Below, in pieces: positions 7,927 to 31,897 of a stretch of DNA of 64,000 bases (position 1 is its first letter; each line of letters begins with the position of its first letter). Made by a program: the position numbers and the translations under genes. This DNA is from Tetradesmus obliquus (lineage: Eukaryota > Chlorophyta > Chlorophyceae > Sphaeropleales > Scenedesmaceae), in the NCBI GenBank assembly GCA_030272155.1, contig CP126195.1:1533001-1597000 (forward strand), given 5' to 3'. The notes beneath the pieces were generated by a model. It was not told the origin of the DNA. It did no database searches and worked only from the letters and a program-made list of their open reading frames with translations.

Positions 7927-9215
7927 GTGCATGCGCAGGTTGCTGGCGAGAACGGGTTAATCCTGGTGCATCCCGGCTATTAGTGCTTGTAGCAACGCAT
8001 TGTGTGACAATCCAAACACCTCTGTTGTGTGCTCTGCTACATGCCGCGACAGGTTGCTGGCGAGAACGGCTTAGACCTGGTATACCCCGGCTGCCTGCTG
8101 CTGGGTTTCCTGAGCTACAAGGGCGCACTCATCGTGAAGCTCATCGACGACCTCACACCAAAGGTGCGAGTGGGTGGCCGGTGAGGGAGCTTGCCTTGAT
8201 TTCTGATGTGTCAGCAGGGTTTTTTGTTGTTGTACAAGGGCGCACTTATTGTGAAGCTTATCGACGATTTCACACCAAAGGTGAGAGTGGGTGGCCAATA
8301 GGGGACCTTGCCTTGATTACTGTGTTTCAGCAGGGTCTTTTTGTCGTACAAGGGCGCACTCATCGTGAAGCTCATCGATGACCTCACACCCAAGGTGGGT
8401 GACACTCTCTGAGGGTTCCAATAAAGGTTGGCAAGGAGTTTGACAAGGAGCTTGGTCAATGAGCCTGTCATTGGCTCCCCAAACGGGCCATGTTACTTGC
8501 ACTCCCCTTCATGTCATTGGTGTGTTATTTCCTTGCAGAGCTTCGGCCCCGAGAAGGAGCGCCCCACTATTGAGAAGTTTGATGAGGATCTGGAGCTAAA
8601 CGAGTGGGGAAGCTCACCCCACACTGCCACCGCTGCTGCTCACTGTAACTTTCATGTCATTAGTGTGTTATTCTCATGTTATTTGTTGTGGTTTTTTGCA
8701 GAGCTTCCGGCGCCGAGAAGGAGCGCCCCACGATTGAGGAGTTTGATGAGGAGCTGGAGCTGGACCAGTCGGGACACCAAACTTGCACTGCCACTTCTGC
8801 TGCCCACTGTTTCTATGTCATTGGCATGTTATTCACATGTTACTCGTTGTGTCATTCTGCAGAGCTTTGGCCCCGAAAAGGATCGCCCCATGATTGAGAA
8901 GTTCGATGAGGAGCTGGAGCTGGACCAGTGGGGGCGCAAAATTCACACTGCCACCGCTGCTGCTTGCCATTTATTTGCACGACAATAGTATGTTATGTAA
9001 CATGTTACCGGTTGTGTTATTTGCAGAGCTTCGGCCCCGAGAAGGAGCGGCCTACAATTGAGAAGTTTGATGAGGAGCTGGAGCTGGACCAGTGGGGGCG
9101 GCCCCGTAAGCGGCTGGCAAACCCGATTGACGTCATGCCTGAGGACAAGCAGGCCAAGGCATATGAGGAGCTGGAGAAGCAGCTTGAAAGACAAGCAGAG
9201 CGGGAGCAGCAGTAG
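6563..9215 (+). CDS. Probable plastid membrane protein, AtpI/CGL160-like
   Basis: Exons 6563-6594, 6682-7228, 7519-7635, 8053-8163 and 9027-9215 join in perfect phase to 331 residues. The start (ATGGCATCG) is preferred because it yields an Ala/Ser/Arg-rich N-terminus without acidic residues, as in a chloroplast transit peptide. After a low-complexity linker come four hydrophobic stretches, near GGAIGLYLLLTV, AALAAMVGAAASYAYLSWV, LLVPAGLGLLVGVA and YPGCLLLGFLSY. The second is followed by RDVDNVK, which resembles the AtpI/UncI-type membrane domain found in the ATP-synthase assembly factor CGL160. The C-terminus is charged (FGPEKERPTIEKFDEELELDQWG) and ends in a Glu/Gln helix. The family assignment is inference from topology and a short motif. 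A different thylakoid membrane protein is possible. Exons 4 and 5 and the 3' end are surrounded by tandem decayed copies. Confidence 0.5.
7887..7925 (+). repeat. (CTG)13 run before a duplicate acceptor
   Basis: Thirteen CTG triplets lie just upstream of the acceptor (atgcgcag) of a decayed exon-4 copy at 7939. Confidence 0.85.
7939..8394 (+). repeat. Tandem copies of exon 4 of the AtpI/CGL160-like gene
   Basis: The functional exon is 8053-8163. A head copy with an intact acceptor starts at 7939, 114 bp upstream, but runs into TAG. Two tail copies end in intact donors at 8280 and 8394 (AAG followed by GTGAGA or GTGGGT), 117 and 114 bp apart. The tail copies encode YKGALIVKLIDDLTPK-like peptides. 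Confidence 0.85.
8539..9110 (+). repeat. Four tandem copies of exon 5 start with acceptor, about 162 bp period
   Basis: Acceptors open at 8539, 8702, 8863 and 9027. Each copy encodes a version of SFGPEKERPTIEKFDEELEL followed by about 85 nt of shared intron-like sequence ending in a T-rich stretch and TGCAG. Copy 2 carries a one-base insertion (agcttccgg). Copies 1 and 3 remain open through the motif. The fourth is the head of the real terminal exon. Confidence 0.9.
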
Positions 9216-9430
9216 CAGGAGTTGCACCAGTTGTCGAGGTGTTACTTGCCACAGGACAAGCAAGCCAAGGCATATGAGGAGCTGGAGAAGCAGCTGCTGC
9301 AGCAGGCGGAGCAAGAGCAGCAGTAGCAGGTGTTAGCAACAGTTGTGATGTGTGACTGCCACAGCGCAAGCTGGCCAAGGCGTATAAGGAGCTGGAGCGT
9401 GGCAGGCAGAACGAGAGCAGCAGTAGCAGC
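9133..9430 (+). repeat. Three tandem copies of the C-terminal coding end, each with its own stop
   Basis: The last codons of the gene (AKAYEELEKQL then QQ-TAG at 9215) recur at about 9254-9327 and 9361-9430. Both recurrences are preceded by acceptor-like gccacag and both end in cagcagtag. The first downstream copy encodes an intact AKAYEELEKQLLQQAEQEQQ end. They lie in the presumptive 3' UTR or act as alternative terminal exons. Confidence 0.8.
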
Positions 9431-10487
9431 GTGCAGCCTCATCTGTGCCGCGCTTGTGACTGTTCATCACTGTTGTCAGCGTGCATTGACACGTCAGATG
9501 GCCGCTTAGTGTCAGCAGCAAAGTCTTCGTGTTTTTTTACCCTGCAACAGCGGAGGACGGGTGTGGCGAGCAGTTTCATGAGCAGCGCTGGCAACCCAGT
9601 CTGAGTGCAGCAACAATGGCGCGGCTTTCCTGCCAGGACCCCTCGTGGTGCCAGCACACCCCGTGCTGGTGTTGTTGCATTTGTGTCGATTGTGCAGCAG
9701 GCTGCTGGTTTTGTCAGCAGCAATGTGCTGCCACAACAGCAGGTGCAGATGCAGCAGTTGTGCACCGTCATTTCCATCGTGTGGCGTTTCAATCACTACC
9801 ATTCATGGTATGCAGCTGCTGATTGTTGTGTCTGACAGGGCAGAATACTGGGCAGAGAGCAGTTTGTGTTGCATGTGCATCTGAGCATATGCAGCAATAC
9901 GGCACTTGTTGCGCTGGCTGCAGCAAATCGGCAGCACCTTATGCTGGTACCAGCGTACGCACACCTGAAACGTGTCAGGTGTCAGGTGTTAGGTGTGTAA
10001 CTGACATTTGACAATGGTACAATGGCACAATGCGTCTGTAGTAACCCCAGCGGTGCTGACTCAAAGTTGGCTCAAAATTGAACATATTGAACATGGTGGT
10101 TGCTGGGTATGTGGACGTGCAAGGATATCACTTGAACACGCGTGTTCTGCCATTGTTTTTTTGTGGTTTTTGGCACTATTGGCACTGCTGCAGACCTACA
10201 AAACACGCGATCGTCGCGTGCCTGTCCTCGTACATGACATCATAGCTTCAGCTTGAATTTTGTGTGAGCGTGACTGGCAAACACTGGTGCACGCAAGCAC
10301 GTTTCGTACACACCCCTTGGAGAACCCCACCACTTGAAAGTGTGGGCTGAAACATAAACGCAAGTGCTGCAGTCTGATACACATCATTGCTGATTAAATA
10401 TATCAAGGCTATTCAGCGCCAATTAATCTTGCGTGTGACAGGATTTCCTCCTTACCTTGCACGACAGAGGGAGCCTTTCGTCTAAGC
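9431..10487. other. Intergenic, 3' flank and upstream region of the transporter
   Basis: No coding frame is supported. A TGTAA occurs at 9996-10000 and could end transcripts of the upstream gene, which would then have a 3' UTR of about 780 nt including the duplicated ends. The stretch after 10380 is AT-richer and leads to the ATG at 10488. Confidence 0.45.
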
Positions 10488-13400
10488 ATGGCAGATGTTG
10501 CGGAGGACGAGGGATCCTTTCAAAAGCCTCGTTGGTTCACTCCTGGCAGGCTGCTGCTTATCTTTTGCATCACCAACCTAGTGGTGTACCTGGACAGAGG
10601 TAGGAGGAACCCTGCTTGCCCTGCTGTGCTGTTGTCAGGTTGAATGAGCCTGCATACACTTGCCACATCTACTGTATGCTTACATCCCCGTGTGTGCTCC
10701 GTACAGGTGTCATAGCAAGCAATGGCGTGAATGGATCACCAAGGACAGAGCAGCAGCCCATGGGCTCGGGCATACAGGTGCGTGCAACAGCAACAGCAGC
10801 AGCAGTAGCAGCAGCAACAGCAGCAAACGCATCAGGCGCATGCGTCTTAATGTCGCGTTGAAGATCAGACTGAGCCCTTGATGGTGTTGTAGTGTTCCTC
10901 AAAGTCCATGACTGTTGTGTCCAGCAGTGTGCACAGCTGGTGCCCTGCCCTTGCTACCTAATGCAGCCCAACCAGTACTGCCAGCGATGCTTGCCTGTCC
11001 GCTGGCTATCAGGTGCACTTCCACACACAGAACCAACAGCAGAAGACGTACTCCTGCTGCTCCGTCTTGGTCAACGTTCCTGCAGGGCGAGTTTGACTTG
11101 AGCAACACGCAGGATGGCTTTCTGGCGACTGCTTTCCTGGTGGGCCTGCTGCTGGCCTCGCCAGTGTTCTCAGAGTCCTGCAAGCACTACAGGTGAGACC
11201 CTGGTTTGTTATATTCACACAGTATGTGGTTGTTCATAGTAAACATGCCCTGCAGCGTGCTGCAGCAGGGGGTTCTCAGAGTCCTGCAAGCACTACAGGT
11301 GAGGCGCTGGTTTGTACAGTTTTTGTTATTTGCCGCACTTATTACGGGTTTGTACAGGTTTTGTTATCTTGCCACACTTACTATAATGTGGATGTCATAG
11401 TAAATGTTCTTGAGACGTGCTGCAGCAACTATTGCCATGCTTGGCAGGTGCCCTGTTTGCGGCGGTTGGGCGCGGTGGGGTCACTATCAGCAGATGCTGC
11501 ATATGCTTGCATGGCAGCAGTATGCGCCGGCAGCGCTATATCTGACACGCCCCTCCTGCAGTGCCCTGTGCAGCACCTAAAACTTTTGCATCTCACGTCA
11601 ACACGCCATCATCTCAGAGTAACACGCGTCATTCGACATGCATCTGTTACTGGTGCATGCAGCGCCTTCCGCCTGATTGGCATTGGTATGGGCACCTGGA
11701 CCCTGGCCATGTTTGACTGCGGACTAACATATGTTATTTTTTGCATACGTGCAGCGCCTTCTGCCTGATAGGCATTGGTATGGGCACCTGGGCCCTTGCC
11801 ACGTTTGGCTGCGGACTAACACATGTTATTCTGCAAATCTGCAGCGCCTTCCGCCTGATTGGCATTGGTATGGGCACCTGGACCCTGGCCATGTTTGGCT
11901 GCGGACTAAGATATGTTACTTTTGCATATGTGCAGCGCCTTCCGCCTGATTGGCATTGGTATGGGCACCTGGGCCCTGGCCACGTTTGGCTGCGGACTAA
12001 CATATGTTATTTTTGCATGTGTGCAGCGCCTTCCGCCTGATTGGCATTGGCATGGGCACCTGGCCCCTAACCACGTCTGGCTGCGGACTAACATATGTTA
12101 TTTTTGCAAATATGCAGCGCATTCCGCCTGATTGGCATTGGCATGGGCACCTGGGCCCTGGCCACGTTTGGCTGCGGCTTGGCAGTGGGTTTCAAGTCGC
12201 TCATCTTCTGCCGCATGCTGGTGGGCGTTGGAGAGGCGTCATTCGTGGCACTGGCAGCTCCCTTCATAGGTGAGCGGTACAGCAATACAAGCAGTACAGC
12301 AGCACGGCAGTGCAGCAGTACAGCAGTGCGGCTGGCAGCCGCAATGTGGCGTTGGCAGCATTCCTCATGAACACACAGCAGCACAGCTAGCGGCAGCTCT
12401 AAGCAGGAGATAAGTACGGATGATGGCTGCATTAATGATAATATTATCATAGTCTTGACAGGCAGCATCTTCTGCCGCATGCTGGTGGGCGTGTGCGAGG
12501 CGTCATTTGTGGCACTAGCAGCACCCTTCATAGGTGAGCAGCACAGCAATACAAGCAGTACAGCAGCACAGCAAAGCAGCAGTGCAGCACACCAGCTGCC
12601 AGCTGCAATGTGGCGCTGGCAGCACCCTTCATAGGTGAGCGGTACGGCAGCACGACATTGCACCAGTGTAGCAATGCGGCTGGCAGCTGTATCACGGCTC
12701 TGGCAGTGCCCTGCATAGGCAAGCGGTACAGCGGGCAGCAGCGCTCTTAGAACTGAAGCAGGGAAGCAGTACAGCTGATGGCTGCATTGTCATAGTCTGC
12801 ACGGGCAGCATCTTCTGCCGCATGCTGGTGGGTGTGGGCGACGCATCATTTGTGGCACTGGCAGCACTGTTCATAGGTGAGCGGCTGTACAGCAGTGCAG
12901 CAATACGGCTGGTGGCTGGGTAATTATGGTCTGCGCATTCAGCTTCGTCTGCCGCATGCTGGTGGGCGAGGCGAGGCGGTACGGCAGTATGGCACTGCAC
13001 TGCATTGTATCGGCACTGCACACAACCAACACTCACTGCACTGCAACTGCAAACAACATTGCCTGCAGCACAACCTTCATTCCTGGCATGCCGGTTCACA
13101 AAGTATAATGTCACTACTGAACCTGCTGAATCTTGCTGCTACCCCTACTGTATGTGTACATTGCTGCAGACGACTACGCGCCGCCTGCTGCCAAGGCGCG
13201 CTGGTTCGCCACCTTCTACCTGTGCATTCCCACTGGTTTCGCGGCAGGCTACATCTATGGGGGGCTCGTGTCTGCTGCACTGGGCTGGCGTGCCGCCTTC
13301 TTCATAGAGAGTGCGGCGATCCTGCCGTTTGTCGTGTTTGCGTTTGTGAGCAGGCCGCTGCACCTGACAGGCAGCAGGGAGACAGGGCCAGGTGAGCTGC

Positions 13401-14742
13401 TGCTGGGGTGGTTGAGCTTGCTATGCTTTTCAGCACCTCAAATGCGCTTGCTGCGCCTGTTACATGTTGCTGCTACCTCTAGGTGCACCTGCAGTCACTG
13501 TGATGATGCGGCAGCTTGCTTGTGTCTTGGCTGCTGTGGTTTCTGCTCTGATGCTGTTCTTCAGCTTAGTGCCTGCTGCATAGAAGTTCTGGCACCATCA
13601 TAGCTGCTACCGCCGCCGCCTCTGCTGCTGCTACTGCTGCTGCTGCTGCTGCTGCAGATCCCGACGCGCCCAAGTCGTTCAAAGATGTGACGACGGAGCT
13701 TGCACTCGACGCCAGCAGGGTGGCATCGCACACTGTGTGGCTGCACATGACAGCAGCCTACGTCATGTACACAGCCGTGCTAGGTGTGTATGCCTTCTGG
13801 GGCCCAAAAGCAGGCAAGCGCATCTACCAGCTGCAGGGCGAGTCGGCTGACGTTGTATTTGGCGGCGTAACGGTTATAACGGGCGTGTTTGGGTCGTTGT
13901 TTGGCGGCCTGGCGCTGGACGCGCTGGGATCTACGCTGTCGAATGCAAATCTGGTGTGCGGCGTGTCAAACCTCGTGGGCTTGGTGTTTGTGCTGGCCTC
14001 GTTTCTGGCAGCCAAGAGCTTCACAGCATTCATTGTTTTGTTTGCACTGGGAGAGCTCGCGCTATTCATGATGCAGGCTCCAGTCAATGCAATTGGTATG
14101 TGGTCGGTTCCGCCGGCGCTGCGGCCCCTAGCGATCTCCATGGTCACTGTGGCCATCCATCTGCTTGGCGACGTGCCGTCGCCGCCGCTGGTTGGCGCGA
14201 TTCAAAGTGCATTAGAGGCCGGCAAAGCGCCGGCGGAGGCCGATGCGCAGTGGCGCATCAGCATGTCGCTGATCAGCTTGCTGCTGGCTTTCAGTGGCGC
14301 TACGTTTCTGCGGGGCTCGTTTGTTTCACGTCGTGCGAAGGATTACAGGAAGGTGGATGAGCTTGCGGCAGCGACGGCAGCTGCCGAACACCACCACATG
14401 CATTTGCCGCAACATACAGCTGCAGGTGCCGATGCAGATGATGGCAGCAGCGGGTTGTTGGGTTCTAGGGTTTCATCGCTGCCAGGCTCGCCCAGCAGGC
14501 CGGGGCACCGGCGGCGGGGCAGCAGCGGCAGCTTGCTGCAGAACAGCGCGGCGGCTGGCAGCAGCGGCAGTTTGAATGGCGGCGGCGGCAGTGGTGGTGC
14601 TACTGCTGCTGGCGGTGGAGGCAATGGCGGTTGGCTGCCAACGGCTGCTGATGTTGCTGCTGCTGCTGGTGATGACAAGCAGCCTCTGTTAGATCCGGAG
14701 GACCCCGGCAGCAGCAGCCCGCCGCAGCGGCATAGGGACTAG
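10488..14742 (+). CDS. Spinster-like major facilitator superfamily transporter
   Basis: Six exons (10488-10599, 10707-10777, 11086-11192, 12118-12269, 13170-13391, 13658-14742) join in phase to 582 residues. Diagnostic Spinster segments appear in order: VVYLDRGVIASNGVNGSP in helix 1, FDLSNTQDGFLATAFLVG, FRLIGIGMGTWALATFGCG, FCRMLVGVGEASFVALAAP, then DDYAPPAAKARWFATFYLC and GYIYGG. The C-terminal half supplies further hydrophobic helices (for example FGGVTVITGVFGSLFGGLAL). A cytosolic tail of about 130 residues is rich in Ser, Gly and Ala. Relatives export sphingosine phosphate or lysophospholipids from lysosomes or vacuoles. Substrate and membrane here are inference. Exon 4 is the last of six tandem copies, and the donor end of exon 4 is also copied downstream. 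Confidence 0.88.
11264..11298 (+). repeat. Copy of exon 3 tail with donor
   Basis: The last about 30 nt of transporter exon 3 (ttctcagagtcctgcaagc) and its donor recur once, ending at 11298, 106 bp after the true donor at 11192. Confidence 0.85.
11659..12180 (+). repeat. Six tandem copies of an acceptor plus exon 4 head, 90-92 bp period
   Basis: Copies begin (AG of the acceptor) at 11661, 11753, 11843, 11934, 12025 and 12116. Each contains TGCAG, the codons for AFRLIGIGMGTW and part of LATFGCG, then actaac or actaag, atatgtta-type sequence and the next TGCAG. The actaac element looks like a branch point. Only the sixth copy continues into the rest of exon 4. All copies keep the acceptor AG. 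Confidence 0.92.
12199..12972 (+). repeat. Copies of exon 4 tail with donor
   Basis: The functional exon tail (IFCRMLVGVGEASFVALAAPFI) ends at donor 12269. Copies with intact CATAG-GTGAGC ends lie at 12533, 12634 (short) and 12876. A decayed copy near 12716 has GC in place of GT. A further fragment (tctgccgcatgctggtgggcg) lies near 12948. Intron-like cagtacagcag sequence is copied with them. Confidence 0.85.
13627..13657 (+). repeat. CTG-rich acceptor tract of transporter exon 6
   Basis: A slightly interrupted CTG run ends in CAG immediately before the exon starting at 13658, the same arrangement as at 2263-2337. Confidence 0.75.
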
Positions 14743-15600
14743 GGTCTGAAGGTGGACTAGCAGCGCTGATGGCGTGTGTGAGATGCTGCACAGATGTTTA
14801 GTTTAATTTCAGTAGGTATGTGACGCTTACAGTTGTTGCTGCTTGTGGTGTAGGTGCGGTGTTTATTGTGGTGCAGCCGGCGCCTGCAAGCGCGGTGATC
14901 AGCAGTGCGCAAGGCACACAGCTGTAGCCGCTGCTGTGGCACTGTTGCACCTAGCTAGCTAGCTAGCTAGCTACTGCAGGTGGGTAGCTAGCTTCAGCGC
15001 TGAAGACGGCTGCTTGCAGCTCTTCTTACACGGAACCAAGTGTAGCAGCTGCTCACGCATGTGGTGGTCGAAGAGTTTGTTGTGTGGGCTGTCTGGCCTG
15101 GATGCGGATCATGCTCTTGATGTCAATATGTTGTTGGGCGGCTCTCATGCTTGTTGCGTTAATGTTCTGTTTGTTTGTTAGACGTAAAGTGTTCGTCCAA
15201 GCTTGCTTTGCTGCCCTGCATACGCTTGCAATGTCGGCACTGTGTCAAGTGAGCTCAGCTCACTTCCAGGCTGGTGCTTCTTGCCTGGATAGCGTTGCAC
15301 GCTGTTGTTGTGACAGTTAGCCATCTACACTGGAAGCGCACATCATGACAAGCAGTAATCCGAGGAGACCGGTCTGCACTAATGAGTTTGCAAGATATCT
15401 GAAGTTCACACTACACACCTTGAATTTCACGATTGCTTCCAGGCTATAGGAGGTTGGCCAGGTCGTTCAATCATGAGTCAGAACTTCAACGGCATTGTGT
15501 ACACAATAAGCGCAATGCAACGGCACACATCATTCACAACCCCCTCTTGCCAAAAGGACTCGGCCGTTGGCGCGAATGCTGTGCAACTCAAAGCAATCAT
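14743..15600. other. Convergent intergenic region
   Basis: It lies between the 3' ends of the transporter (+) and the TOUGH-like gene (-). I see no gene: the open frame near 15084-15320 has no supporting features. The region contains the CTAG tetranucleotide run and leads into the 37-bp minisatellite. Confidence 0.5.
14951..14973. repeat. (CTAG)n tetranucleotide run
   Basis: Five tandem CTAG units plus CTA; self-complementary. A short related stretch (gtagctagct) follows after about 12 nt. Confidence 0.9.
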
Positions 15601-15933
15601 TGCCAAGGCGGCCCTCGTGCAACATGTTGCTGTATATTGCCAAGGCGGCCCTCGTGCAACATGTTGCTGTATATTGCCAAGGCGGCCCTCGTGCAACATG
15701 TTGCTGTATATTGCCAAGGCGGCCCTCGTGCAACATGTTGCTGTATATTGCCAAGGCGGCCCTCGTGCAACATGTTGCTGTATATTGCCAAGGCGGCCCT
15801 CGTGCAACATGTTGCTGTATATTGCCAAGGCGGCCCTCGTGCAACATGTTGCTGTATATTGCCAAGGCGGCCCTCGTGCAACATGTTGCTGTATATTGCC
15901 AAGGCGGCCCTCGTGCAACATGTTGCTGTCGAT
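15601..15933. repeat. 37-bp minisatellite, nine copies
   Basis: The unit starts tgccaaggcggccctcgtgc and ends in tgtatat. Eight copies are essentially identical. The ninth (15897-15933) ends tgtcgat and stops three bases before the TOUGH-like stop codon. Because 37 is not a multiple of 3 and the unit has no stop codon in most readings, long spurious frames cross it on both strands. Confidence 0.97.
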
Positions 15934-15936
15934 TCC

Positions 15937-17025: not shown

Positions 17026-17059
<34 letters not shown>

Positions 17060-17137
17060 GCCGCTGCTGCGTCTGCTAGCGCATTATCCTGGGCGATGTC
17101 CTGCATGATGCTGTCAAGGAAGGATGCAGGATCAGCA

Positions 17138-17168
<31 letters not shown>

Positions 17169-17795: not shown

Positions 17796-17834
<39 letters not shown>

Positions 17835-20800
17835 CTCCTGCAGCACCTGCCTCTTTCTGATTGCCTGGAGGCACCCCAGCTGCTGCAGCAGCAGCTGACG
17901 AGCGTTGCTGCTGCTGCTGCTGCAGCTGCTGCAGCCGCCAGCGATAGTACTCATGCCCCTTGCCTCCCAGTAGGAACTGATATTTGCTGGGGTTCTGCTG
18001 CGCTTGTTTGCGTGCCAGCGCTTCAACTAGCTGCCCACTCCTGCTGACCTGTGCAGCCAATGTGTCTATCTGCCTGGCTAGAGCAGCATCAGTAGGTGGA
18101 GGGACTGGTGCCGCATCCTGCTGCACAGCTGGCTGCAACTCTGCAGCAGCAGCAGCAGCAGCAGGAGCAGGAGCAGGAGCTGCTGCTGCTGCCGCGGCGG
18201 CTGCAGCTGCTGCAGCAGCAGCTGCCGCTTGAGAGCCGCCTGCTGCTACGGCCGCTGCTGCCGCTGCTGCAGCAGCCTTGGCTGCAGCAAACCCTGCTGC
18301 TGCAGGATCCGCTGCACTAGCACCTGCTACTCCTCCCGCTGCTGCTGCTGCTGGTGACGGCGTAAACTTGTGGAACGCCACAAAGTTTGCAGGAACTTTT
18401 GGCGGCGGGTACTCTGGGAAGTTCACAATCTGGCTGGCTGCCCTGAAGTTCGGTATGAAGCTGCCGTGCTGCTGCTGCTGCTGCCGGCTGGTGAGGGCCA
18501 GCACTGGCTCGTGCTGTGCTGCTGCGATGCGTGCTGCTGCTGGGGCCCTGCCTGCTGGGTTGAAGCGGTCTTCATCATCTGCAGTGCGGTACAGTGCAAT
18601 GGTGCAGCACAGTGCAGTACAGGGTCAGTACAGTAGGTACAGTTCAGCATAGTACACAGAGAGTGTGCTGCCTGCTGGGTTGAAGCGGTCTTCATTGTCT
18701 GCAGTACAGTGCAGTGCAGTACAGTGCAGTACAGTACAGAACGGTTCAGCACAGAGCATAGAGAGTGTGCTGCTGCTAGGGCCCTGCCTGCTGGGTTGAA
18801 GCGGTCTGTACCGTCTGCAGTACAATTTGATGCAGCGTGGTGCAGTGCAGTTCCATGCAAATCCAGTTTGGTGCATGCAGTGCAACAAGGGGTGTACGAG
18901 AGCAGTAGGACAGCACACTGGAGGTCAATGCAAGATGTCATGCTCGCATCAGCTAGCAAAGGCGGCAAGAGTGCCCAAAGATTTCACAGTGCGTAACACA
19001 CAGCACCGCTTGCATGCAGGCGGCTGTACAGCACAAAGCAGCTCACATTTCGTGCTGCACGGCAGCTGCGCATAACCTGACTCTGAAGCCTCCTCAGGCA
19101 TTACTAAGGGCACTACATGGCTGCAGCATCGCATTCAAATGCACAGCACTACGCATGCTTTTTTTTACTACACAGCGCCTCACCTGACTCTGAGGCCTCC
19201 TCATACGCAAACACCTCCTGCCGCTGGCCCTTGCGAGCCACCAGCTCAGCACTAGCATCAACATAATCCTCGAGGTACCCCATCGTATCTGTCTCCTCCA
19301 ATGCACCAGTGCCAAATGCAACGCCGCGTTGCCGCTGCTGCTGCTGCTGCCGCTGCTGCTGCCCGCCAAACCCTGCGCCACTGCCTCCGGCTTGTGCTTG
19401 TGTCCTGCCGGCTTCCACTTTCTGGCGCTTGCGGCTTCGAAACTCCTCAGCTCCTTCGAAAGGGTCAAACCCTAAACCATGCAGGTCCTGCTTAGGGTCT
19501 AGCACATACATCGGGGTGTTCTCGATGCTCACGCCTGCGATTGTACCCCACTTGCTGCTGCCGCCGCTGCCAGCTGCATCACCCGCTGCTGCTGCTGCTG
19601 CTGGGCCGCCGATGCCGCGGCCTTGGCGCCAGCCCATCTTTTGCAGCAGCTGCACGCCAATGCTGCTGCTGACTGGCTCAAAGAATTCCAAGGGGACTGC
19701 GCCAGGGATGGCGCTGGGCCGAGACGCTGCTGCTGCCGCTGCCTGTGCGCGTGCAAGCTCTGCTTCTGTGCTGCCAAAGGTGTCATAAGAGGCCTGTATA
19801 CAACCAGAACAGACGGAGGTGGCAGGGCAAGACAGTAATTGTTTTGATACGTGCTGGTGCATATGTACGCATGCAAACTAGCCAGCAGGCACATGCGACA
19901 GTTGTGCGGCTGCCTACAGGATGCTGGTGACTTAGAAAGGCATCATAGTAAGTATCACTTACCCCAACAAGCAGAGGACAAAAGCATGCGGCAGCAATAA
20001 ACACCATTGCACCCACCTTCAACCCCAGCCCCTTCTTCTGCCGCTCCTCCAGCTCATCCTCGTCCATGAACTGCTCAATGCTCTGCTGCTGCCGCTGGCC
20101 TGGCGCTGCACGGCTGGAGGCAAAGCTGCTGGGCTGCCAGCCCTCCTGCAGGGGCAGAGAGGTTTGCAGGGCCAGAAATGTTTGCAGGAAAGTTTGCAGG
20201 AAGATCTGTAAGCAGGCAGATTGTAGTTATGCATGTACTGCTGAAAATTTTGCTGCTGGTCATGGTGAGTTGCCTGCTGACAGGGCTACAGCCACTGCAA
20301 TGACAAGGCCAGAAACCTTCTGCCACTGCTGCTGCTACTCTGGTGAACAAGCTGCTGCTGGGCCGCACCTTGGAGCCGACTGTGTCGTAGCAGCCTGCTG
20401 AGTTGCATCTGCTGCTATGATCAGGCTGCTGCTGGGCCGCACCTTGGAGCCGACTGTGTTGTAGTAGCCTGCTGAGAATCCTCCCATGAATGCGCCATGG
20501 AAGCGGCGCCGGCCCTGCTCGTCAGTGACCTCCTGCTGGTGCACCGGCAGGCTCCTGCAAGCAGTACGGAACCGTACAGTGCGGTACAGCGCAGTGGAGT
20601 ACAGTCAAGTACAGCGCAGTGCAGTACAGTGCAATGCAGTTGTCAGCGGCCTCCTGCTGGTGCACCGGCAGGCTCCTGCAAGCAGTACGCGACAGTACAG
20701 TGCGGTACAGCGCAGTGGATTACAGTCAAGTACGGGCAATGCAGTACAGTGCAATGCAGTTGTCAGCGGCCTCCTGCTGGTGCACCGGCAGGCTCCTGCA

Positions 20801-21273
20801 AGCAGTAAGACACAATGCAGTGCAGTGCAGTGCGGCGTAGCAGGGAGAGGAGACCATGCATATAGGCAAGCAGCAGATCACAGCACAGTCCAGTTCCACT
20901 GCAGGAAAGCAGAGTGACGACGTGGTATGTAGAAGCGGTCTTGCAATTTGCATGTGTGCGTGTGTCAAGGCCGCATGCATGGGAGACAGTACGGTGCAGC
21001 TGCAGTGCGCTGCTGGTGGACTATGGCACACTATACAGCACAAAGACCAGGTTGAGATCACACATTATTGCGATATGTAAATGCTTGGGTGGCATGCCAG
21101 GTATGTGTTGCACTCTTCAGCTGGGTACTGCTGCTGGCGCTGCTGCTGCACACACGTGCACACCTTGTGAGTGCTGGATCCTTTTTGCTGCCTGCAGCGG
21201 CCGCAGTAGTTTCTCCCTCATCTTGAAGAGACGTTCCATAGAACACATAGTCATCTTCATCTGATTCTGCCAT
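15937..21273 (-). CDS. TGH: SURP and G-patch domain RNA-processing protein (TOUGH/GPATCH1-like)
   Basis: Exons on the minus strand (21273-21164, 20554-20443, 20145-20017, 19793-19184, 18578-16629, 16274-15937) join in phase to 1082 residues. GPATCH1-family landmarks: acidic start [36 protein letters not shown] followed by [15 protein letters not shown], a G-patch near residues 158-182 ([15 protein letters not shown]), a SURP module near 490-540 ([20 protein letters not shown] then NPSKYQFL and HEYYRWRL), [35 protein letters not shown], and a Lys/Ser-rich tail. The SURP plus G-patch combination is that of plant TOUGH, a nuclear factor linked to microRNA processing and splicing. The exact role here is inference. 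A second in-frame ATG at 21297 is less likely because the family starts at the acidic motif. Long Ala and Gln runs inflate the protein. Introns hold copies of exon edges. Confidence 0.88.
18549..18822 (-). repeat. Three copies of exon 5 head with acceptor in the TOUGH-like gene
   Basis: The functional acceptor opens the exon at 18578. The segment cctgctgggttgaagcggtc plus the adjoining CTGCAG acceptor recurs at 18671 and 18787, about 118 bp apart. Copy 2 still encodes NEDRFNPA. Copy 3 is diverged in the first codons. Both copies lie upstream of the true exon on the minus strand. Confidence 0.88.
19071..19105 (-). repeat. Decayed copy of exon 4 tail, TOUGH-like gene
   Basis: The minus-strand exon end (EEASES, donor at 19184) recurs once about 110 bp into the intron, with the donor changed. 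Confidence 0.6.
20353..20475 (-). repeat. Copy of exon 2 tail with donor, TOUGH-like gene
   Basis: The sequence ctgctgggccgcaccttgga, containing the exon 2 end and its donor, is present twice about 73 bp apart. The functional donor follows 20443; the copy lies further into the intron. Confidence 0.85.
20521..20810 (-). repeat. Three copies of exon 2 head with acceptor, TOUGH-like gene
   Basis: The segment ctcctgctggtgcaccggca plus the following gctcctgcaagcag recurs at about 20521, 20641 and 20761 with a period of 120 bp. The sequence includes the CTTGCAG acceptor and codons for SLPVHQQE. Only the first (lowest coordinate) copy continues into [14 protein letters not shown]. Confidence 0.92.
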
Positions 21274-22086
21274 CTGGCATGGGGTGGTGCTGTGCACTAC
21301 TGTCCAGCCCCTGCTGCTGCTACTGCTGCATCTTCAGCTGCACGTGCCGCCAACCGTGGGCTGCAAATTGCAGAACGCCTTTATGTCACTAGCATGAGCC
21401 AAACGGCTGCACTGTGCGAAGATCAATCAGCAATATGGCATGCCATCTGAGTCGGGACCTTCGGAACCCGGACCCTGTTATTGGAGCAATCACACTTCCT
21501 CCTGAGCCTGGTTGCTTATCTGATAGTTCTGCAAGGGGATAATCATGTCATTGTGATTGTGAGCAAGGCAGCTATGCTAAGCGTATCTTGGTGCACGTAG
21601 CCAAGCCGTTTCTTGTTGGTTCCGTGACGACGCGTTCCCTGCTACCTATAGTTGTCCGTCGCTTTCGCCAACCGTGCTTGTTTTGATAAAGTAGATGGTA
21701 TCGTGCGTTCTGCAAGGGCAGACAAGCTTTGGCTGTGCTACTGAACACACTGTCTGACACCCAGCAGTAGGAACAGAAGTGAGTGCCCATTGCTGCTTTA
21801 CATCAAGAGCTAGGCTCAAATTACCCAATGTGCATCTCCTCATGGTTCTTGAACATACAGTGTTGCTTGACTGGTGTCTTTGCACCATGTTTGTTCAGTC
21901 ACCTGATGTAACCTCGCTGGTGGTTGCACATGCCAAGCCTGGCACAGCTGCATATCTTGCACGCACAGTAACTCATAGTGATGCATGCCTTCAGCACTAC
22001 ACATTGCTGCTGTAACTTCTTCCACTGTTCCTGCTCCCTGCAGCCTTGGCAGCAGTTGACGCAGCTGCATCAGCCGCAGCAGCAGC
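21274..22086. other. Divergent intergenic region (shared 5' flank)
   Basis: About 810 bp separate the start codons of the TOUGH-like gene (-) and the sulfate transporter (+). I see no coding frame worth reporting. Promoters for both genes must lie here, but no TATA box or other element stands out. Confidence 0.5.
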
Positions 22087-25000
22087 ATGGCGTCAAACCG
22101 CAACTCGCCCCATGGCCGCTGGCCCCGTGGTGGTGCTTCAATCGATGACGAGCGGACAGCAGCTGCAGGAACTGCTCCTAGAGCAACCATTGGCAGCATC
22201 AATGGATGTGATGCGCCAGCAGGCTGTGAGTCACAGCCAGCAGGAGCCAAGAAGGAGCTGCCAATGCGGCATTCCTTTCCAGGCAAGTACTGGGTCGATT
22301 GCTGTGCACCTTGCAAATGCCTGCAGGGTCGTGTTCAAAATGGTGTGCAGATCCAGTGATGCAGCAGCACCAAGGGTGCCGTTGCGGGCGCAGCAGCTGC
22401 CCAGCAACTGCATGCAGTGTTGCAGTCGCAGCATTTGCAGTTGCAGGAGACAGACGGCTGGTGGTGCAGCAGCACTGCACTGCAGATCTGGTGCAGCATC
22501 CAAGCACAGCAGCTGCTGGCATATAAGATGTCAGGTCCAGCAGGTCACCTGGTGCCTCTGGCGCTCCAGGCCTTTTCTGCAAGCCTGCACACAGACACCA
22601 GGCTTTCAGCAGTTGCTCTACATGCAGCACAAGCGCGCAGCTCTGCAGCAATGCCAGCTCTGTACAGTTCGCTTCTATGTTATGGTCAGGTCCAGCTGTG
22701 CCAGCGACAGTGAGTAAGGTAGCGGTTCCAGCTACAGCGCATATGGCAACTCTGCTGCTCCTGCACCAGCACTATGTATCAGCAGCCGCTCCTGCTTCTC
22801 CTGCAACCACCCACCAGCGCCTTTCTGCTGCTGCTTTTGGTCTTGCAGGCACTCTGCTGCCAGGCATCCGCACACGGGCCACACGGTCAGGGCTGCAGCC
22901 GCGTATGTCAGAGGCCCCAGGCCCTGCATACCCCTGGCCGCAGTTCCAACAGGAGGCCGGTGGTGCACTGACAGGCCTGTGCGGGAAAATGGCCAAGCCG
23001 TTTGCTAGGTGAGCGGAAGCTTGCAGGAACGGCGAGTGCAGCAGCTTGCAGGAGCAGCAGATGCGGCAGGTTAATGGAACGGCAAGTGCAGCGGCTTGCA
23101 GGAGCAGCACCTGCAGCAGCTTGCCAGCACTGCAGATGTGGCACCTTGCCGGAGTGTCTGGTGCAGCAGCTTGCAGGCACATCAAGTGCACCAGCACACA
23201 GACGGCAGCAGCCAGTTGCTGGTGTTGCAGCTGCTTGTGTCTGAGTCCTTGCAGGAAGATGTGCCATGCCTCTTGTGAACAACAGCCAGTCAATTGCCTC
23301 GGTGCTGGCGTGTTGTGCTGTGCAGGGCGCGTGCGCGTGTGGCAGGGTTCACCTTTCTCGACTGGCTGCAGCTGTTCCTGCCCTGCGTGAAGTGGCTGCG
23401 CACTTACAAGGTCAAGGAGTACCTGCTGGTGAGCGCAGCAGACGCATCATCCAATGCATCTGCAGCTGATACATCATACACCGCCACAGTGCTGCTAGGG
23501 ATATAGACATGTCTGGCGTGGGGCTCAGCAACAGCTGCAGCAAGCTGCAGCAAGCGACAGGCTTGAGTTTCATTGAAAGCAGCGCAGGGTTGTGCCAAGG
23601 GTTGGCTAGATTAGCTTAACTGTTGCAGCAGGGCAGCAAGCAGCGCGCTAGACGGTACCAGGCTGCCCCAGCAGGACACGCTTCTGTGACTGTGTGGTCA
23701 AAGCAAGCTGCTGCTGCTGCTGTCGTGATGCAACTAAACTTTCCTTGTCATGGGCCACGGCGCTGCCTGTGCTGCAGTGGGACATCATTGCTGGCGTGTC
23801 GGTGGGCTTCATGGTGGTGCCGCAGGGCATGAGCTACGCCAATATCGCGGGCGTGCCCTCTGTGTATGGCCTGTACGGTGCGTGAACAACATTCGTGCAG
23901 TTGAATCTGCATGCCGTGTGTCTGCACCTCAGGTGTGCGGCATCTGCCCCAGCAACCTGCTGCATGCAGTGTCAAGCATGCGCAGCTTTCAGCAATATGA
24001 CTAAGTAACTTTGTAGCAACCTGACACTTGCTAGTATCACAAGGAAATCATATCTGTGCAGCTACCTGACACTCACCCAAGTACACAGCCCAACCCTTTG
24101 TTAGGCAAGGGTCTGATGGCATCAGTCAACTCACATGGGGAGCACTGCTGCTACTGCTGCTGCTGCTGCTGCTGCTGCGCAGGCGCCTTCATGCCAGTGC
24201 TGGTGTATGCGCTGTTTGGCAGCAGCAAGGAGCTGGCGGTGGGCCCAGTGGCGGTCACTTCGCTGCTGATCTCATCGTCGCTGAAGGAGCTGGTGCCTGG
24301 CGCTGAGGACATCACAAACCCCAACAACCCGCCGCCGGACATGGTGAGCATGCAGTGCACAGCTGATGTTCGCAGGGTGCTTGTCAAATGCAGATGGTGT
24401 GCCATCCTCCTGCTTGAAGTGCTGCATCTGCGCAGGAGATGACATGTGTCGGCGGGAGCTCTGTTGCGCCATGATAGAGCTGCACACCAAGCATCAACCC
24501 AGTGCTGCCATCTAGCTGCCTGTATCACTGCAATGTGTTGCGCTTAATATGGCTGCGCAACTGCTGCTTCCCTTCTTGTCTGCTGTGCCTGCAGGTGGGC
24601 GTGCAGCAGCAGTACAACCAGCACGCCATCCAGCTGTCGCTGCTGGTGGCGTGCATGTACACGGCTGTGGGCGTGTTCAACTTGGGCTTCCTCACAAACT
24701 TCCTGAGCCACTCGGTGAGGCCACAGCATGCATGGGGGTGGTGTAAAGCACCCTGCATTGTGTTTCCCTGTTTGTGCTGATGTTGCTGGCCAGCCACTCA
24801 GTGATGTGCCGTTTTTAGATCAGCAACGGCACCAGGCAGTGGGGCGCCCCAGCTTGACGCTGCTGCCAGTCTGCTGACAAGGTGCAGCCTTTGACGTAGA
24901 AGTGTTGTCACCTGAAACTTGGTATATCAGAAGCATTGCGCAAGTGATCCCAGGGCATATCGGGCATCACATGTTTACTGCTGCTGCTGCAGGTGATTGG

Positions 25001-28000
25001 GGGCTTCACGAGTGGCGCCGCCATCATCATCGGCATGTCACAGGTGTGCTGCGCTGCGCAGTGCTGCTCCACACACACCTCAGATACAGCAACATGGCGC
25101 TGCTGCTTGTTGTTGCAACACTTGCAACATATCATATGCATGTTGTGATGCACTCTGTTTCAAGGCGTTCAGTTATCCTTGTGCTGCCGCTGCAACATAT
25201 ACCACTGCTGCTGCTGCTGCCGCAGCTCAAGTACATCCTGGGCTATTCGGTGCCGCGTGCGGACAAGGTGCAGGAGCAGGTCCACGCCTACATCGCGGGA
25301 ATACAGGGCTTTGTGTGGCAGGAGTACATTATGGGCGTCACCATCCTCACGTGAGCGTGGCAGGCTGCTGGTCCTGGCAGTGCTGCGAATGTTTTGGATG
25401 TACTGTAGTTGTTTGCTGTAAGAGTACATAAGGCGTGACCATCTTACGTGAGCGTGTTAGGCTGCTGGTTCTGGCAGTGCTGGATGAAGTATGAATGTTC
25501 AGCTACATAAGAGCATCTTGGGCGTCACACGAGTCCTGCTTTTGATCTACCGCGCAGCATGCTGCTGACCATGAAGTACTACGGCAAGCGCCACCCAAAG
25601 CTCAAGTGGCTGCGCCCCCTGGGCCCCATCAGCGCCTGCGTGATCGCCATCATCGCGGCGGTAGCTGGGGACCTGGAGCATAAGGGGATCCGCATTGTGG
25701 GCAAGATCCCCAAGGGTGAGGCCCAAAGGATATATGAGGCAGGCTCAGGGGATGCATATCATACGGTAGGGTATGATGTAGGAGCACAGGCATGTGAGAT
25801 GGACCTGGAGCACAGGGGCATCCGCATCGTGGGCAAGATCCCTAAGGGTGAGGCTCAAGGGGTGTATAAGGGATCGTCAATGGATGTATGGGACAGACTT
25901 CAACGTAGGGTTTAAGCATAGAATGATGCTGCTGGACCTGGAGCACAGGGGATCCGCATCGTGGGCAAGATCTCCAAGGGTGAGTAGGGACACATGAGAC
26001 AGCAGCGTTGAGCAGGTCTCGGGCAACTGGTGGGTTTGTGGTGCTTGCTCAGCACAGCACATGCACCTGCATTGTGGTGCTTGCTCAGCACAGCACATGC
26101 ACCTGCATTGTGGGCAATGTCCCCAAGCGTGAGAGCTGCTGGGCCGTGTACAGGGCAGCATTGAGCAAGTCTTGGGAGGGGGCGGCGGGGGGCAGGTGTG
26201 AGGTACTTGCTCAGCACAGCAGCGGCATTTGCATCGTGTGCAAGGTCTCCATGATGTTTAGCACAGCGATGTCAGCCTTACCCCAACCCAACCTCCCTCA
26301 GCGCTGTGCCTCTCACACGTGCTGCAGGCCTGCCCAGCCCCACGGTCAACATGTGGATGCCCATGAGCGACTTCAGCCAGCTGGCCCCTCTTGCGCTGGT
26401 GGTGATGATGGTGGACCTGTCATGTGTTGTATGTGTGACGTAGTGCCTCTCTCATGCCCCGCAGGCCTGCCCAGCCCCACAGTGAGCATGTGGATGCCCA
26501 TGAGCGACTTCAGCCAGCTGGCCCCTCTTGCACTGGTGGTGATGCTGGTGGACCTGCTGGAGAGCACATCCATTGCACGGGCACTGGCTGCCAAGGGCAA
26601 GTACCAGCTGGCCGCCAACCAGGTGGGTTGGAATGAACCCTGGCATGTGTTTCGGCTTGTGCTGTTAATCTGTTGGAGATGTGGCTGGGAGTGGCAAGTG
26701 CCAGTTGGCCGCAATACAGCGTGCTGTGGCCGGTTGGCTTGGCAGTGTGCCCCTGGCCCTGGTGGTGATGCTGGTGGACCTGCTGCAGAGCACAAGCATT
26801 GCACGCGCGCTGGCAGCAAAGGGCAAGTACCAGCTGGCCGCCAACCAGGTGCGTGCTAGTGTGGTCCAGTATGCTGTTTTGCACCAATATGCTGCTGTGG
26901 AAGGTGCTGCTGGTGATGCTGGTGGGCCTGCTGCAGATGACAAGCACGAGCACTGGCTGCCAAGGGCAATTACCAGCTGGCCGCCAACCAGGTGCGTAGG
27001 TGCAAGGCACACAAGAAACCAGGCGTGTGTTTCAGCTGGTATCGATGCTGGTGGTATTGCAGATGTGGCTGGGAGCGGCAAGTGCCACCTGGCTATCAAC
27101 CAAGTGCGTGCCAGATTGTTCAAGTATGCTGCTTTGTATCAGCGTGCTGCTGCTGTTTGTGGCTGTGGATGGCACTGGTGGTGATGCTGGTGGACCTGCT
27201 GGAGAGCAAGCATTGCACGCGCTCTGGCTGCCAAGGGCAAGTACCAGCTGGCCGCCAACCAGGTGCGTTGACACAAGGCAAACAACGAAGTGCGCCGTGC
27301 GTTGTAGCTGGCAGCTGGTGGTGTGGGCTCTCACCCCACTTCTCGATGTGCTGATGTGCGCGCGTTCTGTGTCACTGTCCGCCGCACCAGCCCTGGCCTG
27401 GCCAACTTTGCCGGTGACTGCCGCTGCTCACGTGCCAATGTGCTTGCATCACACTTGTTGATGTGGTGACTTGCGTGTGTTCTGTGCCTTTGTGTGTTTT
27501 GCCTGGCCTGGCCTCACTGCAGGAGATGGTGGGGCTGGGGCCTGGCCACCTTACCAGTGACAGCAATGCACGTGCGGATGTGCTTTCACCCCACTTGTCA
27601 GTTTGCTGATGTGCATGTGTCGTGTGTCTCTGTCTGCCTCACCTGCCCTGGCCTGCCCGCAGGAGATCGTGGGTCTGGGCCTGGCCAACTTTGCGGGCAG
27701 CGCGTTCAACGCCTACAGCACCACAGGCTCCTTCAGCAGAAGCGCCGTCAACTACGACTCAGGTGCGCAGGGTAGCTGCATTTTCAGGGACAGCTTTATG
27801 TTTTCGAATTTGCTGGTGCCCAGCGGTGTCAGCTGTGTGGGCCCTTCTAGTGCAGCCACGTAGCATATGAAACAGCTTATGCATATAACTTTGGCGCCAC
27901 CATCAACATCCTTCAGTAGCAGCATCCACTTGCGCGCCGCTGCCATCAGATCCTGGCATGTGCGCGCGGGATGTGTGGCCTCTGCATCTGATCAGTTGCT

Positions 28001-28214
28001 GCTGCTGCTGTGGCCCCTGATGGCTTTTCGCAGGCTGCAAGACAGGCCTTTCTGGCATTGTTACTGCGTGCGTGGTGGGGCTGGTGCAGCTGGTGCTGAT
28101 CGCTTGCTGCTGCTGCTGCTGCTGCTGCCACTGGCCTGTCGCAGGCTGCAAGACGGGCCTGTCTGGCTTTGTGACTGCGTGCGTGGTGGGGCTGGTGCTG
28201 CTGGTGCTGATCGC

Positions 28215-28263
<49 letters not shown>

Positions 28264-31200
28264 TGTTGCTGCCTTCACCGACCTGTCGCAGGCTGCAAGA
28301 CGGGCCTGTCTGGCTTTGTGACTGCGTGCGTGGTGGGGCTGGTGCTGCTGGTGCTGACGCCCGTGTTTGAGAAGCTGCCGCTCAACGTGATGGGCGCGAT
28401 CGTGGTCAGCGGCGTCAGCGGGCTCTTCGAGTACGAGCAGGCGGTGCACCTCTTCAAGGTGGGTGCAATTGTGTACACATGGGCCTGTGTGTACACATGG
28501 GCCTGTGTGCCACTGCAAGGTTTGTGATGTGCACCTGATCCTGCTGTGGCAATGCAAGGCAGTTTGAGTAGGAGCAGGCGGTGCACCTCTTCAAGGTGAG
28601 GTGTTCGCTTCAGTTGAGTGTGCGCTTGCACCTGCTGTGCTGTTGCAAACGCCTGTGATGTGCACCTGATCGCACCTACGGCGATGCAAGGCAGTTTTGA
28701 GTACGAGCAGGCGGTGCACCTCTTCAAGGTGAGGTTTTCTGCTTCAGCTGGGTGTACGCATGGGCCGGTTGTGCCGTTGCAAGGCGTGTGACGTGCACCA
28801 TGTCACGGGCGTCAGCGGGCCCTTTGAGTACGAGCAGGCGGTGCACCTCTTCAAGGTGGGTGCATGTGTACACATGGGCCTGTGTGCCTCTGTAAGAATT
28901 CGTGATGTGCACCTGAGCCTGCTGTGGCTATGCAAGGCTCTTCGAGTACGAGCAGGCGGTGCACCTGTTCAAGGTGAGGTGTTCGCTTCAACCTCTTCAT
29001 GGGTGTGCGCGTGGGCCTGCTGTGCTGTTGCAAATGCCTGTGATGTGCACCTGATCGCACCTACGGCGATGCAAGGCAGTTTGAGTACGAGCAGGCGGTG
29101 CACCTCTTCAAGGTGAGCTAAGGACTTCAGTTGAGTGTGTGCATGGCCCTGCTGTGCAAGGCCAGTGGTGTGCACCTGACCGTGCTGCGGCACTACTTTC
29201 AATGTTGAGCCAAGTGCTGGTTGTTGAACATAGCAAAATTTGCTGTGTCCCACCTGCTTGAACCCTCAACCCCTGCAGATGCACGTCTTTGTCTCCTTCC
29301 ATCCTGCTTGTGCAGGTGCGCAAGCTGGACTGGCTGGTGTGGATGACGTCATTCTGCAGCACCATGTTCCTGGGCGTGGAGATTGGCCTGGCCATCAGCA
29401 TCGGGCTGGCGCTGCTGATCGTGGTGTACGAGAGCGCATTCCCACACACGGCGCTGCTGGGCCGCGTGGGCAACACAACCATCTACCGCAACGTGAAGCA
29501 GTTCCCTAACAGCCAGGTGGGTTTGCAGCATGGTGTGCTTCTGGGATGATCTAATACACTGCGTGTTTGGACCGACTAGCCACAACAGTCTGCCCCAATG
29601 TGCAGCATTTCTGGGCCGCGTGGGCAACACCACCATCTACCGCAATGTGAAGCAGTGCCCCAACAGCCAAGAGCGTGTGAGTTAATGGAGGGCAGCTGTG
29701 GCACGCAGGCTCTGCATATGCCAGGCTGGGGCGATTTTCACCCGTGTATGGCTAGTGTGCAGGTTGCTGCTGCTGCTGCTGCATCAGCGGGTTGTGGTTG
29801 TTATATTTGCCGACTACAACATGTTGGTGTACACCACTTCTCCTTCACTGCACTTGCTGCTTTTGTTGCTGCGGTTGCTCTCCAGGTGCTGCCGGGCATT
29901 GCGGCATGCCGCGTGGACGCCCCGATGTACTTTGCCAACGTGCAGTACATCCACGACAGGCTGCGCAAGTACGTGGCGAGGGCTGGGCAGTACAGCGAGG
30001 CGGGCGGCATGCCGCTGCAGTACCTGCTGCTGGACATGAGCCCAGTGACGCACATAGACAGCACAGGTGCGTGCTTGGGTGCAGTTGAGCGGCTGAGTGT
30101 CGTGAGGGTAACATGTTTGTGTGTTGGAAAGCTTACTGCAGTACCTGCTGCTTGACATGAGTCCAGTCACACACATTGACAGCACAGGTGGGTTTGTGAT
30201 TAGAGCTGAGGGTGTGGCTATTCCCGGCTCACGCTAGGGGCAATCCAGGGTGCGTGGCACAAGAAGGACGTGCTGCAGTACACCAGGGCCTGTTTGTGAT
30301 GGTATCGGCAGTTGCAGGAGGACGTGCCGCAGTGCACCAGGGCTGTTGAAAGTTCTGCCTCTGCTGCTTTAAGCACGTGATGGAGGCGCTGCGCGGCACC
30401 CTGCAGCATATGTACTAGCACACTGTGTTTGAACAGCAATGCCTGCTCTGCGCTTTGCCAAGTCGAGCCTTTGCTTTGTGGACGTGCGGGCTTGGCATGC
30501 GGCCTGCATCAGAATCAGCATTGCCTCACCATGACAGCGCCTAAACAGCGTTCTGTCTGCATGCTGTTGTGTGTGCTGCAGGCGCGCACCTGCTGGAGTC
30601 GCTGCATGAGGAGATGGGCCACCAGGGCGTGCAGCTGGGGCTGTGCAACCCAGGTGGGTTGCAAGCGCCTGTGCTCTGCCACTGGGTTGGCATCACAGTA
30701 GCACTGGCAGAGCAGCACACGGGCCTCATGTGCTGTGACATACATCATAGGCACGTCCCTTGTCCCTTTGTCTGTGTGCATACTCATCACTGATGTTGTG
30801 GCAGCTTCACTGTGGGGCTTCACTGGAACCCAGCAATGCTACAGCCCCAACGACGTGTGTTCAGCTACCTATCTGTCCTGACTTCCGTGCTGCAGGCGCT
30901 GCCGTGGTGGAGCTGCTGGAGCGCACCGGCTTCCTCGAGGTGCCCGGCCAACATAGGGCCTGCAATGCTCCCGCCATAATCACCCATCCTGCACTGGCAT
31001 GTATCTATCTGTTTGATGCGCAGGTGCTGCCGTGGTCGAGCTGCTGGAGCGCACCGGCTTCCCCGAGGCACTCAATGGTTAATGCTGCCTCTCACCGTCA
31101 CTTCTGTACCGTCATGTATGTATTGCAGGTGCTGCTGTGGTTGAGCTGCTGGAGCGCACCGGCTTCCCCGAGGTGCTGGGCCGCGAGTGGATCTTTGTGC

Positions 31201-31862: not shown

Positions 31863-31897
<35 letters not shown>

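Follow-up and report, generated by a model that had tools for sequence, protein, structure and literature searches.

Extra copies of exon edges in the introns of Tetradesmus obliquus: possible scars of repair between diverged homologues

Why should the introns of a green alga hold extra copies of the ends of their neighbouring exons? The question is raised by a 64,000-nucleotide stretch of the Tetradesmus obliquus genome (hereafter the window; contig C5, GenBank CP126195.1, positions 1,533,001 to 1,597,000 of the forward strand), in which a preliminary description had noted short segments, either an acceptor plus exon head or an exon tail plus donor, repeated in the introns of four neighbouring genes: one CGL160/AtpI-like, one Spinster-like, one TOUGH-like and one SulP gene. 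The observation is confirmed, and it extends to much of the genome as sampled. What the copied edges have in common is the edge of conserved coding sequence and not the splice site as such, since the ends of coding sequences (CDS), with their stop codons, are copied too. The copies are tentatively read here as scars of faulty repair that joined two diverged copies of one gene, most likely the haplotypes of a vegetatively diploid alga.

The window has eukaryotic introns, a GC content of about 57% and abundant CAG/CTG runs. Gene models come from a self-trained hidden Markov gene finder, those of the SulP, Spinster-like and CGL160-like genes in the window being hand-curated; the names CGL160, Spinster and TOUGH are taken from the initial annotation, made from the sequence only. 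The 17 curated SulP exons, most of which the gene finder also recovers, translate openly and encode domains PF00916 and PF01740. Pfam likewise supports the Spinster-like gene as a member of the MFS family, while the CGL160-like protein has no Pfam match with a query partly not derived from the sequence (for several genes the Pfam queries were hand-cut pieces). In the three curated genes, 15 exon edges, one of them a stop-codon edge, are accompanied by 32 copies in the adjoining introns or the 3' flank. Together with two three-copy arrays in the TOUGH-like gene, they bear out the early count of at least 15 events. The arrays, seen by Tandem Repeats Finder and by direct reading, lie at the following window positions.

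7519-7635, plus strand: CGL160/AtpI-like exon upstream of the first affected exon (gene model)
7939-7978, plus: copy of the acceptor and exon head of exon 8053-8163
8053-8163, plus: CGL160-like parent exon (open frame and splice sites)
8233-8280, plus: copy 1 of the exon tail and donor of exon 8053-8163
8347-8394, plus: copy 2 of the exon tail and donor of exon 8053-8163
8539-8936, plus: three copies of the acceptor and exon head of exon 9027-9215, period about 164
9027-9215, plus: last CGL160-like parent exon, with the stop codon
9247-9429, plus: CDS end and its stop codon repeated in the 3' flank (one copy scored at 9247-9326, a weaker further one by eye)
11086-11194, plus: Spinster-like (MFS) parent exon
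11272-11300, plus: copy of the exon tail and donor of exon 11086-11194
11663-12086, plus: five copies of the acceptor and exon head of exon 12118-12270, period 91
12118-12270, plus: Spinster-like parent exon
12466-12877, plus: two scored copies of the exon tail and donor of exon 12118-12270 (shorter ones by eye to about 13000)
18531-18851, minus: TOUGH-like gene, three copies of an acceptor and exon head
20329-20476, minus: TOUGH-like gene, repeated exon-edge piece, offset 80
20521-20833, minus: TOUGH-like gene, three copies of an acceptor and exon head, period 120
22085-32307, plus: SulP gene, 17 curated exons, PF00916 and PF01740
25801-25979, plus: SulP, two copies of the exon tail and donor of exon 25558-25715
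26328-26417, plus: SulP, copy of the acceptor and head of exon 26465-26622
26759-27262, plus: SulP, three copies of the exon tail and donor of exon 26465-26622
28034-28210, plus: SulP, two copies of the acceptor and head of exon 28292-28458
28563-29112, plus: SulP, five copies of the exon tail and donor of exon 28292-28458
29611-29669, plus: SulP, exon-tail copy of exon 29316-29516, intron flanks non-homologous
30136-30187, plus: SulP, exon-tail copy of exon 29886-30066, flanks non-homologous, five of five differences at third positions
30898-31068, plus: SulP, two copies of the acceptor and head of exon 31129-31310

Most spacers of the five-copy Spinster-like array contain ACTAAC, which we take to be a branch-point-like motif. 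In the SulP gene, a larger unit at 26306-27322 (offset 374, 72% identity) encloses the smaller exon-tail copies, so duplication there happened in layers.

The copies are not confined to these four genes. The sample beyond the window comprised 25 loci of 10 kb, whose positions were picked blind to sequence, together with eight partly overlapping SulP loci (about 26 kb in total) and 1.5 kb on contig C14. Scored local duplications are present in 15 of the 25 blind loci and absent from 10, with strong differences between loci (mean 2.84 events, variance 9.06). On contig C14, 1.3 kb of a SulP paralogue holds an exon tail together with nine copies of it, whole or partial. An intron of a SulP paralogue on the same contig (locus L004, about 1690-1790 and 2205-2300) has two stretches of about 90 bp that look by eye like mutual reverse complements, a small inverted-repeat-like arrangement. 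Over all material, once edges with low-complexity sequence or little intron had been removed, 68 of 543 tested edges carry 127 copies (28/269 acceptors and 40/274 donors). Five of these edges, with 12 copies, belong to the low-complexity or satellite loci L012, L024 and L027, leaving 63 edges with 115 copies.

The shape of the copies is equally regular. A search with longer queries, satellite and low-complexity loci removed, gave 118 copies from 497 edges, of which 105 terminate no more than 5 bp from the exon edge, whereas six end more than 15 bp from it. The splice dinucleotide is retained in 86 of the 102 copies that reach to within 2 bp of the edge, as had been described. Offsets lie mostly between 75 and 165 bp (median 129 over 93 events). 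Of the 18 stop-codon CDS ends tested, five have a downstream copy, one of the five in a satellite; such copies occur in the CGL160-like gene (9247-9326) and in loci L013, L021 and L026. At its inner end the nearest copy has a second good splice site within 6 bp in 7 of 62 cases (2.8 expected at random places) and within 15 bp in 12 of 62 (6.7 expected). Most copies are thus half exons that have a single splice site, although a few may resemble exons.

Several of the sampled loci hold genes with Pfam support: a GCS2 gene (L013), a UBA protein (L018), a mannosyltransferase and an FMN oxidoreductase (L019) and a GTPase (L026). In L026 (about 3631-3899), exon-head copies lie in a GTP_EFTU-domain gene, presumably similar to spliceosomal EFTUD2, and one copy is fused into the predicted protein. 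Altogether, 76 of the exons called by the gene finder were reclassified as copies. In loci L029 and L032 the gene finder gives clean multi-exon genes, which we assume to be dynein-like from protein likeness; unlike other loci, these contain long genes, whose introns are regular and measure about 200 bp, and zero scored duplications. The window has other repeats besides. A satellite of about 282 bp at 39452-43520 (some 14 copies, 89% alike) is called coding in parts on the minus strand by the gene finder; a 37-bp unit, repeated perfectly some nine times at 15599-15929 in the space that separates the Spinster-like gene from the TOUGH-like one, looks very recent; and a CAG-rich repeat in a predicted exon (5662-6066) shows superposed periods of 12, 36 and 72.

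Is this concentration at exon boundaries more than chance would give? Each duplication was placed anew at random within its own locus in 500 simulations; this test and an age-matched one took in arrays of up to 1500 bp and up to seven copies, with offsets of at most 400. In the 25 loci, 38 of 71 events include a splice boundary, against 19.7 expected and a simulated maximum of 31. Intron-only events number 12 (25.5 expected) and intergenic ones 0 (5.5 expected). The window behaves alike (15/24 at a boundary, 7.4 expected, maximum 14), as does the subset of full-length tandem events (15/21, 8.2 expected, maximum 14). Old intron-only duplications fade faster than those at exon edges, and an age-matched control was therefore needed, in which both detection and identity were taken from the noncoding part only, in the window and the loci together. 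Here 27 of 42 events span an exon edge, against 10.3 expected; at 85% identity or more the figures are 13 of 24 against 5.6, and at 90% or more 9 of 16 against 3.6. Random geometry as the sole cause is insufficient in both tests, and age-dependent ascertainment does not produce the excess, which stays when conditioned on the noncoding part. Since it persists after age matching, the excess requires more than tolerance plus geometry, and the early statement that the copies concentrate at boundaries beyond what whole-exon duplication predicts stands.

The flanks and the divergence of the copies suggest what this additional factor may be. The intron flanks beside the parent and beside the nearest copy were compared in 62 events (the 63 edges less one with a spacer below 25 bp). 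They are homologous (z at least 3) in 37 events, intermediate in six and without homology (z below 2) in 19, of which 17 had an acceptable exon alignment. In eight of the 19 that were inspected, the exon parts are 90-98% identical and the match breaks off 0-8 bp beyond the splice site or the stop codon, with the splice site kept at the copy in six of the seven splice-edge cases; at the L013 stop edge the match ends four bases past the stop codon. All but one of the 19 events have 44-155 bp between exon edge and copy; the remaining one has 1167 bp. Direct tandem repetition of an exon and its intron does not describe such events, whose intron flanks are unrelated; a tandem duplication at this exon identity should bring recognisable intron along. 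The early picture of splice-site units in direct tandem needs correcting for them and for the copied stop-codon edges.

In their exon parts, compared event by event, the copies differ from the parents much as coding sequences do. Over the 62 events, the mismatch frequency between the nearest copy and its parent is 0.053 at codon position 1, 0.050 at position 2 and 0.178 at position 3; positions 1 and 2 together differ at 127 of 2466 sites (5.2%) and position 3 at 217 of 1221 (17.8%), a ratio of 0.29 (bootstrap 0.21-0.38). A useless copy of a fully constrained parent should, by our own reckoning, show a ratio of about 0.5-0.6, and in any case 0.5 or more, because such a copy changes alike at all codon positions. 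The ratio is 0.20 in the 53 events left when nine with poor exon alignment are omitted, an omission that biases towards a low ratio and that the 62-event analysis restores, and 0.18 in the 14 of the 53 that belong to curated window genes (16/536 at positions 1 and 2, 44/266 at position 3). The codon changes in the 53 events comprise 148 synonymous, 67 non-synonymous and one to a stop, and there are 10 frameshifting indels; gap openings number 21 in 3704 exon-versus-copy columns and 152 in 8890 noncoding columns. Base composition as the source of the third-position excess is unsupported, since G and C are no more mutable than A and T in noncoding columns. Third-position divergence is moreover homogeneous over the 53 events (chi-squared 56 with 52 degrees of freedom, where uniform ages or steady birth would give 80-158), a narrowness that may partly reflect detection limits, and it is nearly the same in the three classes of flank homology (0.163, 0.176 and 0.165 in 53 events; 0.178, 0.192 and 0.167 in 62). 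Copies with one splice site can hardly serve as exons, and the coding-type divergence therefore probably arose before copy and parent became neighbours.

From where, then, could a diverged copy have come? Four copies were searched for in the genome assembly (104.66 Mb in 17 contigs of 3-11 Mb). For three of them, the copy itself and its parent are the sole matches; the fourth also matches its local sister copies and, more weakly, a SulP paralogue. A paralogue as donor was thus not found for three of the four, and the fourth has the weaker paralogue match only. The searched copies are local and gene-specific, and so lack the mark of introners and other mobile introns, the same sequence at many unrelated loci. 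The simplest remaining source would be a second allele of the gene concerned, with about 17% divergence at third positions. Several accounts of related material would fit such an allele: the assembly of S. obliquus DOE0152z is 208 Mb, compared with about 109 Mb for UTEX 393 (PMC5552973); another paper gives a haploid size of 103.4 Mbp for a Scenedesmus strain that it calls 'likely diploid' (PMC7955037); and a T. obliquus reported to be diploid and extensively heterozygous, possibly a hybrid, is mentioned in a third (Biondi et al. 2024, cited after PMC12636532).

We infer the following sequence of steps, in which the divergence preceding the joining, the second haplotype, the strand invasion and the end joining are the inferred parts. 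Exons would be islands where the haplotypes still match, which introns often would not be. A break in or near an exon would lead to invasion of the same exon on the homologue, and synthesis would then reach the exon end and proceed some tens to about 150 bases into the homologue's intron. The new end, having no match there, would be linked by end joining to the other side of the cell's own break, which bears its own exon end and intron. The product would be an exon tail, a donor, the start of a foreign intron, the same exon tail again and its own donor; exon heads would yield the mirror image, and a CDS end the same product. The extra edge copy would lie in the intron, and splicing from the outer, contiguous copy would keep the mRNA normal and let the scar survive. 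Some scars would later grow by ordinary tandem slippage into arrays such as the 91-bp one. Interhomologue repair would account for the few intergenic and intron-only events and for the stop-codon edges, and the copied edges do follow conservation, stop codons included.

The main rival, a real possibility if a doubtful one, is that ordinary local tandem duplications, some 75-165 bp in size, form all over the genome, that those internal to exons are purged, and that those spanning an edge are tolerated, the extra copy being intronic, and then decay. Several results favour it and weigh against interhomologue repair. The 37 events with homologous flanks, like the typical offset, are as expected of plain tandem duplication, and a few events, including the intron part, are 98-100% identical throughout (L022, L026). 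When all high-scoring segment pairs (HSPs) are taken with no selection of events, positions 1 and 2 differ at 0.069 and 0.068 and noncoding columns at 0.138, a twofold difference as in dead self-copies; this set, which includes low-complexity loci and misannotated exons, may be the truer average. Copies compared with one another in the same set (6/76, 8/75 and 11/73 at positions 1, 2 and 3) show no clear third-position excess, and some arrays, by reading the Spinster-like 91-bp one, show neutral-looking decay among their copies. The boundary excess in the random-placement test is weaker among the young: 14 of 31 events of at least 88% identity (8.2 expected, simulations up to 16), and 5 of 7 that are also full-length (2.9 expected, simulations up to 6). 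Furthermore, none of the 15 start-codon edges tested carried a copy, the models outside the window are self-trained and at least two copies (in L018 and L026, by reading) were mistaken for exons, and the second haplotype has never been seen here.

Four results stand on the other side. Geometry predicts fewer boundary and more intron-only events than were observed; the ratio of 0.29 at the level of events has an upper bound of 0.38, below the 0.5 expected of decaying copies; third-position divergence is uniform; and 19 of the 62 events have no intron homology. Private changes of copies in multi-copy arrays (15, 12 and 37 at positions 1, 2 and 3 in the window; 43, 36 and 68 in the loci) mix lineages, and nothing firm is drawn from them. 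The same evidence bears on intron growth by local re-replication, proposed at the outset: introns do grow by the copies, but the exon parts have diverged as if coding and the 19 sets of flanks do not match. The mechanisms first put forward are, as a group, partly supported at best.

The sequences might also be kept as alternative exons or as competing splice sites under selection, which is unlikely. The synonymous bias of the differences and the retained splice dinucleotides would agree with use, as would the seven nearest copies that have a second splice site of good quality no further than 6 bp away, where 2.8 are expected at random places. However, no such site lies within 6 bp in 55 of the 62 cases or within 15 bp in 50, the 53 events include 10 frameshifting indels, and selection for competing splice sites, as proposed in the preliminary description, leaves the constrained look of the half-exon codons unexplained. 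An assembly artefact, made by joins between the diverged haplotypes of a heterozygous diploid, is about as improbable. The differences look allelic, and related algae are reported as heterozygous diploids; but the listed stretches contain zero N, the contigs number 17 and measure 3-11 Mb, long-read overlaps greatly exceed units of about 100 bp, and multi-copy arrays have a decay of their own. The least probable of all is that replication or repair is steered to splice junctions, for instance by R-loops or the splicing machinery, as had been suggested: copies do end within 5 bp of the edge in 105 of 118 cases, though any edge-crossing duplication gives that, and the inspected matches without flank homology stop 0-8 bp past the splice site, but targeting predicts neither the copied stop-codon ends, with the L013 match stopping just past the stop codon, nor coding-type divergence.

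How does interhomologue repair, as read from these copies, compare with known systems? Tandem exon duplication, as in mutually exclusive exons, also places extra exon-like sequence beside its parent with synonymous-biased divergence. Mutually exclusive and cassette exons, however, have an acceptor and a donor on their two sides, whereas most copies here consist of one exon end with a single splice site. Models of repair by interhomologue or homeologous recombination with end joining resemble the process proposed here in that diverged homologues in one nucleus recombine during repair, as does mitotic recombination in allodiploid Auxenochlorella (PMC12636532); a scar limited to the edges of conserved exons, with unmatched introns, is not among the features described in the available part of that account. 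Intron gain by duplication of proto-splice sites likewise involves local duplication of exon sequence that partly ends up in an intron (PMC2891723). Here, by contrast, the copy lies in and enlarges an existing intron, bounded by the parent exon, and marks no new intron position that was seen; moreover, the copied piece is an exon end, and not an internal AG/GY site as in that process. Introners and intron-creating transposons are similarly a genome-wide source of intron sequence (PMC9860276), but they are dispersed, unlike the four local, gene-specific copies searched here. No published account of exon-edge copies was met in the titles and abstract openings of the open-access literature searched.

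The lengthening of introns and the repair of breaks between diverged homologues are questions usually approached indirectly, and the copies bear on both. About one in eight tested exon edges (68/543) carries at least one, which by extrapolation should mean thousands genome-wide, and they would offer a simple route for intron growth. Should the copies prove to be fragments of a haplotype, one haplotype could suffice to recognise a heterozygous diploid, gene finders would need a warning of false exons, and in hybrids the turnover of intron edges would be expected to outpace that of intron interiors by far. More broadly, and more tentatively still, T. obliquus may be a vegetatively diploid and probably hybrid alga in which exons serve as islands of homology for repair between haplotypes with unmatched introns, and in which abortive repairs, each leaving its scar at an exon edge, would act as a genome-wide engine of intron growth, storing in introns, and legible in a single haploid assembly, fragments of the otherwise unseen second haplotype as a fossil record of past heterozygosity.

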